DNA from: a virus
IMG/VR virus record: IMGVR_UViG_3300032334_001544
Span: 1 to 58,298 of that record
Direction: 5' to 3' (one strand)
Length of the DNA: 58,298 nucleotides
Under the pieces are notes generated by a model, which did not search any database, was not told the DNA's origin, and worked only from the letters and a program-made list of their open reading frames with translations. How positions within the stretch are numbered: the stretch's first letter is position 1; each line of letters starts with the position of its first letter. Positions 7,398 through 55,712 of the stretch are shown here, piece after piece. A program made the position numbers and the translations under genes.

Positions 7398-7967
7398 TTA
7401 CTGGTTCTTGAAGATCACAAGCAGACCACGTTCACACTGTTCACCAGGGAATGAACTCTTGTTGAACAGTTGATGGCTCAACTTACGATTCTTGACTGTG
7501 GTATAGATGTTTCTTAGATTATAGAATATACCACCTGGCCAATGCTGCTGCATGTTTACATCATGATAGATCAATATGCCATTGTCATTTAATAAGTTAT
7601 CATACACATACTCGAACCATTGATCAGTATGGTAGTGATCAGCATCGCTCATGATGAAATCGAAACTGTCCTGACAACTGAACACGAAATCCCGCTCATC
7701 GCTAGTTAAAAACTGTACACGGCTAGCATATCTTTCTGTGACCTCTGGTGGCATTTCACCGCCCCAGTCTGCCCAGTTATCCACCAGCGTATAGTCATAG
7801 GGTTTGCGATTATATTCCAGGCCAGCTAATATACTGTCAAGGCTCCGCCCACCACCTATGCCCAGTTCCAGGATCTTTTCAGGTTTGTTGGCTTTGACCA
7901 GGCTTTCCACCAGGCTGGCATGTGCTATATCGATCTTGATTTCTTCAACTTGACCAAAATTTGACAT
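7398..7967 (-). CDS. SAM-dependent methyltransferase (class I)
   Basis: A 189-residue protein with motif I ILELGIGGGRS (about 32-42), TLVDNW (motif II) and FDFIMSDADHYHTDQWFEYV as in O-methyltransferases of the CmcI/TylF type. It probably methylates a sugar hydroxyl in the glycan cluster (inference). It shares its ribosome site and upstream sequence with the next methyltransferase gene through a 62-bp direct repeat (AAGGA 8 nt before the ATG in both). Confidence 0.75.
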   Translation of the reverse strand: MSNFGQVEEIKIDIAHASLVESLVKANKPEKILELGIGGGRSLDSILAGLEYNRKPYDYTLVDNWADWGGEMPPEVTERYASRVQFLTSDERDFVFSCQDSFDFIMSDADHYHTDQWFEYVYDNLLNDNGILIYHDVNMQQHWPGGIFYNLRNIYTTVKNRKLSHQLFNKSSFPGEQCERGLLVIFKNQ

Positions 7968-8022
7968 ATATTTTTCCTTATTCTATAATTCTAAAACCAG
8001 ACAAAATTTGATCTTGTTTGAT
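7961..8022. repeat. 62-bp direct repeat, copy 1
   Basis: Identical over 62 bases to 8815-8876, with TCTG also shared after one mismatch. It covers the start and ribosome site of the 189-aa methyltransferase gene plus the last 15 codons of the gene remnant upstream. Together with copy 2 it brackets the FkbM gene. Confidence 0.9.
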
Positions 8023-8086: not shown

Positions 8087-8821
8087 TTAGATTCCCGGAG
8101 TACAAACAAAATCATGATTGTTATTGTTAACGCTATATGCAATATTGTAATTTATTTCTCTTAAAAATGTTTGGTAATCTTCCCAAGTTACATCAAATAC
8201 CCTGTCACAAACATGCTCATATTCAAAAACCAGCACAGGTTTATGAGCTAAGATGGTATTTTTGGCTCCTTGCAATGCATAAAGATCGCTGCCCTGTATA
8301 TCGACTTTGATTAAGCTGACTCTGTTTTGAAATTGCATGCTATCAACAGTAAGCGAGGGAATAACATGATAAGTCATGTGATTATATATTTCATCTTCTA
8401 CGTATCTAATACCAGCACCGCTGTGATAGTTATCACCTTGGCCTGTAGCAATATTCATTTTAAGTTCATGCCCCAGTTCATTCCACGCAGCAGCGTGATA
8501 TAATCTTATGTTGTTTAATTCTGGATTGTTTTGCACTGTTTTTTCCAAATAGCTGAAAACAAAGTCACTGGCTTCCACACTGTGTACTACACCACTAGGG
8601 CCTGTCATTCTGGAAAAATGCAAGGTCATCTGTCCATAATTGCACCCTAGGTCTACTACTTCAGATCCTGGTGTTATGTACTGCTGACATGTAAGTATGA
8701 CTTCCGGTTCAAATACTGCACCGGATCTTATACAATCCAGTACAGGGTCTGCTCCATACGGAGGAACAAAAAAATTAAAACCGTTGTTGTTGATTAAAGT
8801 TCCTGGTAAATCTGTTGACAT
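8087..8821 (-). CDS. FkbM-family methyltransferase
   Basis: A 244-residue SAM methyltransferase. Motif I VVDLGCNYGQMTLHF (about 54-68), acidic loop VHSVEAS and the FkbM signature LIKVDIQGSDLYALQGA followed by VLVFEYE. The family O-methylates sugars or lipids in exopolysaccharide and natural-product loci. The gene is flanked by a 62-bp direct repeat and looks more AT-rich than its neighbours (for example TTAAAAATG, AAAAAAATTAAAA), which suggests recent gain by homologous exchange. Confidence 0.8.
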   Translation of the reverse strand: MSTDLPGTLINNNGFNFFVPPYGADPVLDCIRSGAVFEPEVILTCQQYITPGSEVVDLGCNYGQMTLHFSRMTGPSGVVHSVEASDFVFSYLEKTVQNNPELNNIRLYHAAAWNELGHELKMNIATGQGDNYHSGAGIRYVEDEIYNHMTYHVIPSLTVDSMQFQNRVSLIKVDIQGSDLYALQGAKNTILAHKPVLVFEYEHVCDRVFDVTWEDYQTFLREINYNIAYSVNNNNHDFVCTPGI

Positions 8822-8876
8822 ATATTTTTCCTTATTCTATAATTCTAAAACCAGACAAAATTTGATCTTGTTTGAT
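8815..8876. repeat. 62-bp direct repeat, copy 2
   Basis: Identical to 7961-8022. It spans the start and ribosome site of the FkbM gene and the final codons of the 309-aa glycosyltransferase-like gene. Confidence 0.9.
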
Positions 8877-51118: not shown

Positions 51119-51502
51119 TTGTTACCAGTACCTTATCTGCCTGCACAAGTGCAGCGATACTTCCATGAGTATCACGATTACGAATACTTTCCACAGCCAG
51201 AGTTCGTGGAAGCTAGAGAATATACTGTGATAAATCCTGCAGAAGTCAAAGCCCGGATCCTGGACTATCTGGGACAAGTGCTGGCCAGATGCTGGTGTAA
51301 CTCAGAGCTGATGGATCTGCTCAAACAGAACCCACATGAATGCCTGTTGCAACTGGGCATAATCCTTCCTGAGGAACTGAACATCCTGGTGGAAGAACGC
51401 AAGAACAATCCCAATAGGCCCAGGCTGGTTGTGTATGAGAAGTCAGGCACAATGACCAAACGTGTTTGTAGCCTGCAACTGATGATGACAGCAGGCAGGT
51501 AG
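51119..51502 (+). CDS. Nitrile-hydratase-leader-peptide (NHLP)-like protein
   Basis: 127 residues, starting at TTG 51119 with AAGGAGG about 8 nt upstream. ELMDLLKQNPHECLLQLGII and LPEELNILVEERKNNPN, ending RLVVYEK, resemble the NHLP fold (F-x-x-L-L-x-D-P-x-x-A-L-x-x-x-G-I-x-L-P-E), best known as leader of modified peptides and from nitrile hydratase alpha. The tail (SGTMTKRVCSLQLMMTAGR) has one Cys and no clear core or GG site, and no maturation enzyme is nearby. Function unknown. Confidence 0.55.
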   Translation: MLPVPYLPAQVQRYFHEYHDYEYFPQPEFVEAREYTVINPAEVKARILDYLGQVLARCWCNSELMDLLKQNPHECLLQLGIILPEELNILVEERKNNPNRPRLVVYEKSGTMTKRVCSLQLMMTAGR

Positions 51503-51537: not shown

Positions 51538-51571
51538 TTGTAATATGATTGTAACATTCGTAATTTATAAT
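51538..51571 (+). promoter_or_regulatory. Candidate Pho box and -10 for the lipid/phosphate operon
   Basis: Two 7-bp direct repeats, TTGTAAT (51538-51544) and TTGTAAC (51549-51555), are separated by 4 bp (11-bp period), the layout of PhoB half-sites (CTGTCAT). They end exactly 10 bp before TATAAT (51566-51571), the spacing known for PhoB-dependent promoters. Matches to the E. coli half-site are 5/7 and 4/7. No conventional -35 is present. A further TGTCA occurs at 51518. Confidence 0.5.
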
Positions 51572-51599: not shown

Positions 51600-52502
51600 A
51601 TGCAACCATTTCCAGATTTCAAATTCATGATCAATACACTTAACCGCGACCTAGAGAACAGTGTATTTGCACATATACCATTTGCCATACCAAAAAGTTA
51701 TACTGTGGCACTAGGCCAGATAGGCGATTTAGAAATCAGATTGGCACAAACACGCAAAGAAGTCAAACAGGCACAAAAACTTCGCTATCAGATATTCCAC
51801 AAAGAACAGGGTGCCATTGCCAGTTTGGAATGTATGCTGAAGCAAAGAGATATAGATCCCTATGACGCATATTGTGATCATTTGCTGGTAGTGGATACCA
51901 AATATCCCAGAAAGAAGGTGCCAGGCGTAAAACAGTCATACAAAGAAAAAGTAGTGGGCACATACCGCCTACTCAGACAAGATATAGCAGATAAGCATGT
52001 GGGCTTCTACAGCCAAGCAGAATTTGATGTAGACAGCCTCATCCAGCGACACCCAGGCAAGCGTTTCTTAGAGCTAGGGCGTAGCTGCGTTGATAAAGCA
52101 TACCGCGACAAACGCACAATAGAACTATTGTGGCGTGGCATCTGGTGGTATGTGACAGAACATAAGATAGATGCCATGTTCGGCTGTGCCAGCTTTGAAG
52201 GCACAGACATAAAAAAACTATCTCAGCAACTGAGCTTGCTACAAGATGTTGCCAGTGCTGCACCTGAATGGCAAACATCTGCACATCATTCAGATTTTGA
52301 CACATCAGATAAAATTACATATAATGATGCCAAGAAGGTGTTGCACCAGTTGCCCACCTTGATAAAAGGTTACATGCGCTGTGGTGCCAGATTCGGCACT
52401 GGTGCTGTTATAGATCGTGAATTCAATACCACAGATGTTCTGGTTTTGTTGCCTGTCACAGACATAACTCCTAGATATCGTGAACACTTTACCATGAATT
52501 AA
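51600..52502 (+). CDS. olsB: OlsB-like ornithine N-acyltransferase (GNAT)
   Basis: A 300-residue protein. AQKLRYQIFHKEQGA (about residues 57-71), RDIDPYDAYCDHLLVVD, VVGTYRLLRQDIA, GFYSQAEFDVDSLIQ, FLELGRSCVDKAYRDKRTIE then LLWRGIWWYV, and MFGCASFEGTD are the signature blocks of OlsB, which attaches a 3-hydroxy acyl chain from acyl-ACP to ornithine, the first step of phosphorus-free ornithine lipids. OlsA, the second enzyme, is not in the window. First gene after the Pho-box-like promoter; pstS, plcP and agt follow in line. Confidence 0.88.
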   Translation: MQPFPDFKFMINTLNRDLENSVFAHIPFAIPKSYTVALGQIGDLEIRLAQTRKEVKQAQKLRYQIFHKEQGAIASLECMLKQRDIDPYDAYCDHLLVVDTKYPRKKVPGVKQSYKEKVVGTYRLLRQDIADKHVGFYSQAEFDVDSLIQRHPGKRFLELGRSCVDKAYRDKRTIELLWRGIWWYVTEHKIDAMFGCASFEGTDIKKLSQQLSLLQDVASAAPEWQTSAHHSDFDTSDKITYNDAKKVLHQLPTLIKGYMRCGARFGTGAVIDREFNTTDVLVLLPVTDITPRYREHFTMN

Positions 52503-52521: not shown

Positions 52522-53439
52522 ATGCTTAAACGGATTGCAATAGCACTAGCCGGACTACTAACTGCGACTGCTGTAAATGCAGCAGATATTTCAGGAGCAG
52601 GGGCAACATTCCCTTTCCCCATCTATGCTAAGTGGGCAGATGCCTACAAGACAGAAACTGGCAATAGCCTTAATTATCAGAGCATAGGTTCAGGTGCTGG
52701 TATCAAACAAATTATAGCCAAAACTGTAACATTTGGTGCATCAGATATGCCACTGGATCAGAAGGAATTGGACAAGCACGGTCTAGTGCAATTTCCCACA
52801 GTGATTGGCGGCAATGTCATTGTTGTTAATATTGATGGCGTTGCAGCAGGTGAATTGGAATTAGATGGTGCTACTGTGGCAGATATCTACTTGGGCAAGA
52901 TTACCAAATGGTCAGATGCTAAAATTGCCGCACAGAATCCTAAAGTGAAACTACCAGATACTGCCATTACTGTGGTCCGTCGTAGTGACGGATCAGGCAC
53001 CACATATGTGTTTACCAAATATCTCAGTGAAGTCAGCAAGGATTGGGCAGACAAGATTGGATCAGGCACAGCAGTGGAATGGCCAGTGGGCGTTGGTGCC
53101 AAAGGCAATGACGGGGTAGCAGGCAATGTCAAGATGACCAAGAACAGCATCGGCTATGTGGAATATGCTTATGCCAAACAGAACAGTCTGGCACATACCA
53201 CCATTGGTGGCAAGCAACCAGGAAAAGCAACATTCCAAGACAACAGCTGGCCCATCACTGCACCCACATACATCATCATGTACAAGCAACCAGCAGATGC
53301 TAATGCCAGCCGAGAAGCCTTGAAGTTCTTTGAATGGGCTTATGCCAAGGGGGATGCCATGGCAGATGCACTGGATTATGTGCCACTGGATAGCAAGCAA
53401 AAGTCAGCAGTAAAAGAGATCTGGACGGCCATTAAGTAA
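52522..53439 (+). CDS. pstS: Phosphate-binding protein PstS
   Basis: A 305-residue periplasmic protein. Signal peptide 1-20 (MLKRIAIALAGLLTATAVNA). Phosphate-site motifs: ISGAGATFPFPIYAKW, SIGSGAGIKQI, TFGASDMPL and RRSDGSGTTYVFTKYLS. It captures phosphate for the host PstCAB transporter; phage pstS genes are known in cyanophages and are PhoB-regulated there. Slightly shorter than E. coli PstS (346). AAAGGAG precedes ATG 52522, 20 bp after olsB. Confidence 0.95.
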   Translation: MLKRIAIALAGLLTATAVNAADISGAGATFPFPIYAKWADAYKTETGNSLNYQSIGSGAGIKQIIAKTVTFGASDMPLDQKELDKHGLVQFPTVIGGNVIVVNIDGVAAGELELDGATVADIYLGKITKWSDAKIAAQNPKVKLPDTAITVVRRSDGSGTTYVFTKYLSEVSKDWADKIGSGTAVEWPVGVGAKGNDGVAGNVKMTKNSIGYVEYAYAKQNSLAHTTIGGKQPGKATFQDNSWPITAPTYIIMYKQPADANASREALKFFEWAYAKGDAMADALDYVPLDSKQKSAVKEIWTAIK

Positions 53440-53445
53440 GTTTGC

Positions 53446-54219
53446 ATGGCACAATATCATTCAGTCTTTATCAGCGATGTTCATTTGGGTACCAAAGGCA
53501 GCAAAGCTGAACTATTAGTGGCATTCCTCCGTGAGGTGGAATGCCATAATCTATTCCTGGTGGGCGACATATTCGATGGTTGGCGACTTAAAAAGAACTG
53601 GTACTGGAACGAACATCACAGCACCGTGGTACAGAAGGTGCTCAGGATGGCCCGTAAAGGCACAAAGGTATATTATATTCCTGGCAATCATGACGAGTTC
53701 ATGCGTGAATTCCTGGAATATAATTTCGGCAGCATAGAACTACACAACGAAATGACCTATACAGGTGTCAATAAAAAACAATATATTGTCATACATGGTG
53801 ACAAATTTGACTTTGTCACACTCAACATGAAATGGCTGGCACACATAGGTGACCAGGGCTATACGCTGTTGCTAAACCTCAACACTGTGTTACACTGGAT
53901 CATGGCCAAACTCAAATTGCCTTATTGGAGCCTGAGCAAATGGGCCAAGAGCCAGGTCAAACAAGCAGTTAATTTCGTAGGCGATTATGAGGCCAGCTTG
54001 GTAAATTATGCCAGGATCAAACATGCAGATGGCATCATATGCGGTCACATACACAGTGCCAACATCAGTACAATTAATCACATTGAATATATGAATTCCG
54101 GCGATTGGGTTGAGAGTTGCACAGCCTTAGTTGAGCACACCGATGGTCTCTGGGAAATAATTACATGGACAGCAAATGAAGATAACACTAGTAACAGACA
54201 CATGGACACCCAGCATTAA
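53446..54219 (+). CDS. plcP: PlcP-like phospholipase C (LpxH-type metallophosphoesterase)
   Basis: A 257-residue protein. SVFISDVHLGTKGS (residues 6-19), LVGDIFDGWRLKKNWYWNE, IPGNHDEFMREF, VIHGDKFDF, HIGDQGYTLL and ICGHIHSANIS are the metal-binding blocks of the UDP-2,3-diacylglucosamine-hydrolase-like family that includes PlcP. PlcP cuts the head group from phospholipids to give diacylglycerol during phosphate starvation. The tight link to an Agt-like glycosyltransferase (44-bp overlap) and to pstS and olsB makes PlcP the best reading. An LpxH-type enzyme is the alternative. Confidence 0.82.
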   Translation: MAQYHSVFISDVHLGTKGSKAELLVAFLREVECHNLFLVGDIFDGWRLKKNWYWNEHHSTVVQKVLRMARKGTKVYYIPGNHDEFMREFLEYNFGSIELHNEMTYTGVNKKQYIVIHGDKFDFVTLNMKWLAHIGDQGYTLLLNLNTVLHWIMAKLKLPYWSLSKWAKSQVKQAVNFVGDYEASLVNYARIKHADGIICGHIHSANISTINHIEYMNSGDWVESCTALVEHTDGLWEIITWTANEDNTSNRHMDTQH

Positions 54220-55186
54220 TGGTGTTGTAACAACATTAGTTAATACAGTGGAACACCTGCAACAATTAGGACATGATGTCCAGATCATAGAACCTGGACA
54301 GTTTTGCACTGTGGGATTGCCAGGCTATCAGGAAGTCAGATTAAGTTGGGACATCTGGCGTGTGGGTAAACTGATAGCACAGTTTGATCCTGATGCCATA
54401 CATATTGCCACTGAAGGACCACTGGGGCTAGCTGCCAGATGGTATTGCAAGGTGGACAAACGAAGTATACCACATAACACCAGCTACCATACAAAGTTTC
54501 CTGAATACATGAGCCATCATTATAAGATTCCAGAATCATGGAGCTATTGGTGGATGCGTGTGTTTCACAAGTTCAGCACAAAAGTGTTGGTGACTAATCA
54601 GGACATGCAGGCAGATCTCACACAGCGTGGTTTCCAGAACTTGGCCATATGGAATCGTGGTGTCAATCGCGACCTGTTTAATCCCCAGAGACGCAAGAGA
54701 ACCAGCTATCAGGGACCTATTATACTCTGTGTGAGCCGTGTGAGTAAAGAAAAGGGACTGGAGGACTTTTGCAACCTGCAGGTAAAAGGCACCAAAGTTC
54801 TAGTAGGTGATGGCCCCATACTTGCAGAACTGAAAAGAAAATATCCAGATGTCATATTCACAGGTGCCAAGACAGGCACTGCATTGGCTGAATATTATGC
54901 TGCTGCTGATGTATTCGTGTTTCCCAGCAAGACCGATACATTTGGTGTTGTCATTTTGGAAAGCATCGCATCAGGTACACCAGTAGCTGCTTATCCTGTT
55001 ACAGGCCCCAGAGATGTTGTTATAAATGATGTCAACGGGTATATGGATGACGATTTGACAACTGCGGTTAAACGTGCTATTGTCTGTGATAGAATCCAGG
55101 TAAGGCACAGCAGTGAGCAATATGACTGGGCAGCTTGTACAGAAACTTTTATAAAAAACCTGAAAATAATTGAAAAAAACAATTGA
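54176..55186 (+). CDS. agt: Agt-like glycolipid glycosyltransferase (GT4)
   Basis: A 336-residue GT-B enzyme. An N-terminal TDTWTPSINGVVTTLVNTVE, PGYQEVRLS and HTEGPLG-like IATEGPLGLAAR, and the C-terminal VSRVSKEKGLEDF, VGDGP and FVFPSKTDTFGVVILESIAS with the donor-binding E-x7-E-type motif. This subgroup (SqdX/Agt) transfers sugars to diacylglycerol; Agt makes glycolipids that replace phospholipids. Starting 44 bp inside plcP, it would use the diacylglycerol that PlcP produces. Confidence 0.82.
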   Translation: MKITLVTDTWTPSINGVVTTLVNTVEHLQQLGHDVQIIEPGQFCTVGLPGYQEVRLSWDIWRVGKLIAQFDPDAIHIATEGPLGLAARWYCKVDKRSIPHNTSYHTKFPEYMSHHYKIPESWSYWWMRVFHKFSTKVLVTNQDMQADLTQRGFQNLAIWNRGVNRDLFNPQRRKRTSYQGPIILCVSRVSKEKGLEDFCNLQVKGTKVLVGDGPILAELKRKYPDVIFTGAKTGTALAEYYAAADVFVFPSKTDTFGVVILESIASGTPVAAYPVTGPRDVVINDVNGYMDDDLTTAVKRAIVCDRIQVRHSSEQYDWAACTETFIKNLKIIEKNN

Positions 55187-55212
55187 CAGATGTTGTCAGT
55201 AGTGTATAAATA
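55183..55212 (+). promoter_or_regulatory. Hybrid early/late promoter before the RNA region
   Basis: TTGACA (55183-55188), overlapping the agt stop, is followed after 16 bp by TATAAATA (55205-55212). This works as an early -10 and as a perfect T4 late motif. It would transcribe the small ORF, the terminator hairpin and possibly the tRNA region. Confidence 0.7.
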
Positions 55213-55242
55213 TATAGTAAGTTAAACAAACGGAACGAAGAA

Positions 55243-55320
55243 ATGTTTATGTCTCAAGAACCGAACCAGAATATTTGCAATTGGTATGCCCGTCATACCT
55301 CAGGGGTCCTTGTGGCATGA
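55243..55320 (+). CDS. Possible 25-aa leader peptide
   Basis: An ORF, MFMSQEPNQNICNWYARHTS and five more residues, between the hybrid promoter and a strong terminator, with GGAACGAAG upstream. It ends just before a small hairpin (GATGTG/CACATC, 55319-55334). It may be a leader peptide controlling read-through into the tRNA region (inference), or non-coding. Confidence 0.35.
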   Translation: MFMSQEPNQNICNWYARHTSGVLVA

Positions 55321-55347
55321 TGTGAACGCACATCATCGTGATACAAG

Positions 55348-55375
55348 AACCCCGGTGTCGAACCCGGGGTTTTTT
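55348..55375 (+). terminator. Rho-independent terminator
   Basis: AACCCCGG (55348-55355) pairs with CCGGGGTT (55364-55371), followed by a run of T to 55375. It ends transcripts from the agt operon or the hybrid promoter, or attenuates them before the tRNA genes. Confidence 0.85.
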
Positions 55376-55376
55376 C

Positions 55377-55712
55377 ATGGACTAACAGGCAGTTGCTCCC
55401 TGTGCATAAGAGCAACCAGTGACTGGTACTTGAGCCTCATGGCTGAATAGGTGGTTTCCAGCATTGCAGGAGAGATTGTCTCTCCACAGATACATCTGTG
55501 TGTATCTGTGAAGTGACATACAACCGCCCAGGGCGGACCAAGTTGTGGGTGGAGGTAACCCTCAGTGGAGCAGGCCACTCAGAAACATTCCTGCTGTGTT
55601 GGACCTGTTACAAGGTCTGGGTAAGGGCGATCAAAAGCCAGTGTGGCAGCGGTAGAGGGGGCTGGCCACATCAGATTTTTCACAGCCAAATCTCAGCTGT
55701 GATATATAAGAA
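55377..55712. other. Hairpin-rich region without a convincing gene; possible structured RNA
   Basis: About 335 bp between a terminator and the first tRNA. Inverted repeats crowd it: GTTGCTC/GAGCAAC (about 55392-55416), CCAGTGACTGG, a 10-bp CACAGATACA/TGTATCTGTG (loop TCTGTG) near 55485-55510, CCGCCC/GGGCGG near 55525, and CACAGC/GCTGTG near 55681-55701. Two weak reading frames exist: plus from GTG 55498 (75 codons with CIC and CWTC) and minus from 55578 (67 codons). Neither has a good start signal or known family. A non-coding RNA on either strand is plausible. Confidence 0.35.

Follow-up and report, generated by a model that had tools for sequence, protein, structure and literature searches.

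What controls a phage gene cassette that joins a phosphate-binding protein to enzymes of lipid remodelling? The cassette, olsB-pstS-plcP-agt, is encoded on the + strand near the right end of a 58,298-base virus record, which was analyzed over its whole length and is referred to here as the window. From its tail sheath, tail tube, UvsX-like recombinase and terminase, the virus is placed among the T4-like myoviruses. The initial annotation had read, ahead of olsB, the half-sites TTGTAAT and TTGTAAC 4 bp apart, followed after 10 nt by TATAAT, and a rereading of positions 51538 to 51571 reproduced this arrangement exactly (Table 1). Comparison with other viral and cellular sequences leads us to regard the element as, very probably, a class II PhoB-activated sigma-70 promoter of olsB-pstS-plcP-agt.

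Table 1. Cassette genes and predicted promoter elements, in window coordinates
Feature	Position	Strand	Basis or remark
Upstream Pho half-site TTGTAAT	51538..51544	+	Letters read directly
Downstream Pho half-site TTGTAAC	51549..51555	+	Letters read directly; 11 bp from first half
-10 element TATAAT	51566..51571	+	Letters read directly; 10 nt past box
olsB, L-ornithine N-alpha-acyltransferase	51600..52502	+	NCBIfam NF052555 equivalog, 327 bits (cut-off 320); operon's first gene
Perfect sigma-70 consensus TTGACA-N17-TATAAT	52297..52325	+	12/12 match; inside olsB
pstS, phosphate-binding protein	52522..53439	+	NF008171 and TIGR00975 above cut-off
plcP-like calcineurin-type phosphoesterase (phospholipase C of lipid remodelling)	53446..54219	+	PF00149 above cut-off
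agt-like GT4 glycolipid glycosyltransferase	54176..55186	+	PF13439 and PF13692 above cut-off

The cassette genes are separated by 19 and 6 bp, and plcP and agt overlap by 44 bp; a single transcript is therefore likely. LpxH models matched the plcP-like protein below their cut-off. The plcP-agt pair, a metallophosphoesterase beside a GT4 glycosyltransferase, is homologous to a pair known from cells: agt has full-length alphaproteobacterial relatives at 42 to 50% identity (46 to 50% for the best cellular ones), and of 20 alphaproteobacterial loci inspected, 17 have a plcP relative next to the agt relative. In marine heterotrophic bacteria, plcP beside agt, with putative Pho boxes, accompanies the replacement of phospholipids by glycolipids (PMC4796936). 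Unlike those clusters, the window pair is carried by a phage, shares a predicted operon with olsB and pstS, and has no OlsA gene found with it. A search for OlsA (PF01553) in the window and two related, possibly incomplete, records gave no match, so ornithine lipid synthesis would need the OlsA of the host.

The putative Pho box consists of two 7-bp halves related to CTGTCAT, separated by ATGA and thus repeated with an 11-bp period. It stands where a -35 element would otherwise lie, and its 10-nt distance from TATAAT, which ends 28 bp upstream of the olsB ATG (position 51600), agrees with the roughly 10 to 11 nt of Pho promoters. Similarly, 11-bp direct repeats precede a sigma-70 -10 element in the E. 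coli pstS, phoA, phoE and yibT promoters (PMC10294691). The tie to phosphate-starvation genes is one of position only, olsB-pstS-plcP-agt lying downstream of the box.

A pattern scan of the whole window found exact TTGTAAY-N4-TTGTAAY once. With a PhoB matrix built from 59 E. coli ChIP-seq sites (PMC10294691 Table 1), the site ranks first among ~116,600 scored window positions, an equal score being expected by chance 0.55 times per whole window. It outscores 64% of the real E. coli PhoB sites in a leave-one-out comparison; when the 97-bp gap was shuffled 2000 times, 8 of the shuffled versions attained its score. It also ranks first in the window with a matrix made from other viral pstS promoters (0.7 expected by chance). 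A strict matrix, built from 48 non-redundant, almost all alphaproteobacterial, pstS upstream regions with the de novo motif CTGTCAT-N4-CTGTCAT, places the site eighth, because both of its halves have A where the matrix has C. The alphaproteobacterial matrix check that had been proposed was thus carried out with a poor fit as its result, for a group that may not be that of the host; that the PhoB in question is alphaproteobacterial had been an assumption. We dropped the strict matrix as a yardstick, the A variant being used in both the E. coli ChIP-seq and the viral sets. The half-site scores of 5/7 and 4/7 against CTGTCAT, given in the initial annotation as a weakness, are correct figures, but they are low because that consensus is too narrow, and the doubt that they raised is largely removed. 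As a single site in 58 kb, judged by sequence alone, the element is of marginal significance (chance expectation about 0.6); comparison with other genomes decides the matter, the element becoming significant by its position and conservation.

The closest relative, a 183-kb phage (L002), has a 27-bp core, TTGTAATATGATTGTAACATTCGTAAT, that is unchanged, the upstream half-site being identical; at four-fold degenerate sites the two genomes are 64% identical in olsB and 50% in agt. Across the whole upstream gap 81 of 96 positions are identical, conservation reaching beyond the box. In L002 a second copy of the box, TTGTAACACGATTGTAAT, precedes the next gene, and the entire 183-kb phage contains only two exact copies of TTGTAAY-N4-TTGTAAY, both in the cassette. 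A more distant phage, L122 (73% identity in olsB, 84% in pstS, 55% in plcP and 75% in agt), has at the same position before olsB TTGTCATCATACTGTTAT, a TGTCAT-type box with TTGTCAT as its upstream half, and before the corresponding acidic-protein gene the box TTGTCATCATAGTGTCAT; TTAAAT or TAAATA lies 10 nt from both. The acidic protein is a small D/E-rich product with its own Pho-type box (L002:5617-5931, L122:6007-6282), encoded between olsB or pstS and plcP; gene and box are absent from the window.

The same arrangement recurs well beyond these relatives. Unseeded de novo motif discovery in 25 non-redundant viral pstS upstream regions, excluding the window clade, recovered this 11-bp direct repeat as TTGTAAC-AAAA-CTGTCAT in roughly three of every four regions, with a log-likelihood of 131 to 133 depending on register versus 61 to 74 in four shuffled sets. 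Averaged over 19 viral boxes, the -10 score is highest precisely 10 nt past the box, and 13 of the 19 score at that offset. We also scanned a viral collection for the box followed after 10 nt by TTAAAT, a pattern that uses no protein information, and obtained at least 120 stretches, versus 3 when the same letters were placed at 14 nt. By BLAST, the first open reading frame among the matches listed was PstS in 78 of 116 cases and PlcP in 17; the remaining 21 genes include another PstS-type protein (L259, L286) and a Na/Pi cotransporter (L277). Since some of the 116 promoters come from near-identical phages, we also counted distinct ones: among the matches listed there are 79, of which 53 lead PstS and 13 PlcP genes.

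The association with individual genes varies between data sets. In 33 other viral plcP-agt loci without pstS or olsB, the canonical box was not found in most; in that set, therefore, the box goes with pstS and olsB and not with plcP, although promoters leading plcP do occur in the census. To find an isolate outside the cyanophages whose host is known, the phage collection was searched. It yielded no olsB, and pstS in genuine phages is almost confined to cyanophages; the Salmonella, Campylobacter and Escherichia records containing pstS look like bacterial sequence. Pelagiphage Mosig possesses plcP and is without the TTGTAAY-type form of the box. Between its divergent pstS and plcP genes (L155:4850-5000), TGTTAAG/TGTTAAA repeats with 11-bp spacing occur on the pstS strand and may represent a SAR11 form of the Pho box. 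A family of ~320-residue, apparently membrane proteins is headed in several phages by the same Pho-type promoter (L186:3639-4595, L243:1420-2376, L250:5088-6053); those members that were scanned against Pfam, PHROG or NCBIfam matched nothing significantly, and the ANDSVQTLGTW stretch recalls PiT-type phosphate transporters.

In cells, the exact double-TGTAAY promoter was found in 3 of 385 alphaproteobacterial and 3 of 369 gammaproteobacterial genomes, scanned with slightly different patterns, with seven matches in total. Four of the seven precede phosphate genes, namely phoB (L307; TIGR02154 above cut-off), pstC twice (L309, TIGR02138 above cut-off; L303, identified by inspection of its sequence) and a PstS-type protein (L304); the other three precede other genes. 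Cells as the source of the exact promoter were considered and rejected, as it is rare there. In vivo, E. coli PhoB binds yibT (TGTAATAGTTCTGTAAC) and mglB (TGTAACCCGTATGTAAC), in which both halves are TGTAAY (PMC10294691 Table 1); these two showed no significant PhoB-dependent change in expression, and phoE, with one TGTAAT half, is strongly PhoB dependent (PMC10294691). Double TGTAAY is a minority form in E. coli and a common one in the viral set, and the window site is on a phage.

Whether the Pho-type promoter acts alone on the cassette depends on the other promoters nearby. The initial annotation had set it apart from TTGACA-N16 promoters used elsewhere in the window, a fair description, as such promoters are clearly in excess: a search tolerating one mismatch gives 13 of the N16 type versus 1.7 expected and 10 of the N17 type versus 1.6 expected, and neither count was matched in any of 100 shuffles. 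The perfect consensus inside olsB lies 196 nt upstream of the pstS ATG and may drive pstS-plcP-agt independently of PhoB. The earlier claim that the whole cassette is under PhoB therefore stands as regards the presence of a PhoB promoter, while its exclusivity is doubtful. One could go further and suppose that the PhoB box governs olsB, that the internal promoter mainly drives pstS-plcP-agt as ordinary phage genes, and that phosphate tunes only part of the cassette. The 12/12 match and the general enrichment of such promoters favor this division, which we consider possible but rather doubtful, since the internal promoter lies within coding sequence, did not appear at the corresponding position of L002 or L122, and would require a long leader, and since in L122 olsB and pstS lie close together downstream of a Pho box.

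The identity of the activator can be weighed in the same way. OmpR-family regulators bind tandem direct repeats, and another host member of that family could occupy the site, in line with its eighth rank under the strict alphaproteobacterial matrix, which may not represent the host. Such a regulator is nonetheless improbable: PstS, PlcP or PstS-type proteins make up 97 of the 116 scored first genes among the matches listed, with one Na/Pi cotransporter besides; the cellular copies precede phoB, pstC and pstS; and the orthologous site in L122 is a TGTCAT-type box. Phages often encode their own activators, with motifs near -30, and one such protein, serving middle or late transcription, might use the repeat. 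We hold this to be very improbable, as the element accompanies phosphate genes in diverse phages, the 183-kb phage has no exact copies outside the cassette, and no protein with a Trans_reg_C (OmpR/PhoB-type) domain was found in 17 viral records, some of them fragments, in a search whose control worked. From that last result it follows that the regulator should be the host's, and host PhoB is the most likely one. A chance direct repeat in AT-rich intergenic DNA would be compatible with the equal matrix matches expected in the window, but is contradicted by the conservation, the recurrence, the exact spacing and the census, and we give it hardly any credence. Control of the cassette by host PhoR-PhoB, as originally suggested, is by comparison well supported, by the viral recurrence, the 10-nt spacing, the TGTCAT-type boxes of L122 and the cellular copies.

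For a promoter activated by host PhoB, we infer the binding, the induction, the enzyme activities and the benefit to the phage as follows. In a phosphate-starved host, phosphorylated PhoB would bind the two 11-bp direct repeats, stand in for the -35 element and recruit host RNA polymerase to the -10 element 10 nt downstream, so that the promoter would fire upon entry of the phage DNA and olsB-pstS-plcP-agt would be transcribed by the recruited polymerase. Phage PstS would then feed the host PstCAB transporter; PlcP would cleave phospholipids to diacylglycerol, which Agt would glycosylate, and OlsB would start ornithine-lipid synthesis, to be completed with host OlsA. Overall, phosphorus from the membrane would become available for phage DNA, with the membrane itself kept intact. 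As an approximate figure, a cell contains about 2 x 10^7 phospholipids and a 183-kb genome about 3.7 x 10^5 phosphates; membrane phosphorus could therefore, in principle, supply some tens of phage genomes.

Control of phage pstS and other genes by host PhoB is known from cyanophages P-SSM2 and S-PM2 (PMC10976474 and references there), to which the window is alike in placing, by prediction, a phage phosphate gene under host PhoR-PhoB. Pho boxes predicted in a cyanophage were only partly confirmed by gel shift (PMC10976474). The cyanophage box is of the PyTTAAPyPyT/A type or CTTA-N7-CTTA, whereas that of the window is of the proteobacterial 7-4-7 type; and no lipid genes are reported in those cyanophage systems, whereas the window operon opens with olsB. 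In the literature searched, host PhoB control of phage genes was not reported outside cyanobacteria, and neither a phage-borne olsB nor a phage plcP-agt lipid cassette was reported. On balance, we favor the view that widespread non-cyanobacterial phages carry standardised PhoB promoters, through which the phosphate alarm of the host would trigger phosphate uptake and, in this lineage, the conversion of host phospholipids to ornithine and sugar lipids, turning membrane phosphorus into phage DNA. If so, infection in phosphate-poor habitats would reshape membrane lipids and phosphorus release depending on the phosphate supply. The promoter pattern may also serve as a search tool for phosphate-responsive phage genes, as it retrieves pstS and plcP without protein information.

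Further observations concern the surroundings of the cassette. An open reading frame of 127 residues with a TTG start (window 51119-51502), conserved in L002, has a weak NHLP leader peptide match below the model's cut-off. Elsewhere in the window, an identical 29-nt sequence, TTGACATATATTTTTCCTTATTCTATAAT, is present at 7961-7989 and 8815-8843. Downstream of agt, a conserved stretch (window 55183-55535; L002:7909-8250) lies behind a TTGACA-N16-TATAAA promoter. An Rfam search of it gave no match beyond tRNAs. It contains strong stems, including the CCCCGGTGTCRAACCCGGGGTTTTTT hairpin, and is possibly a phage non-coding RNA.
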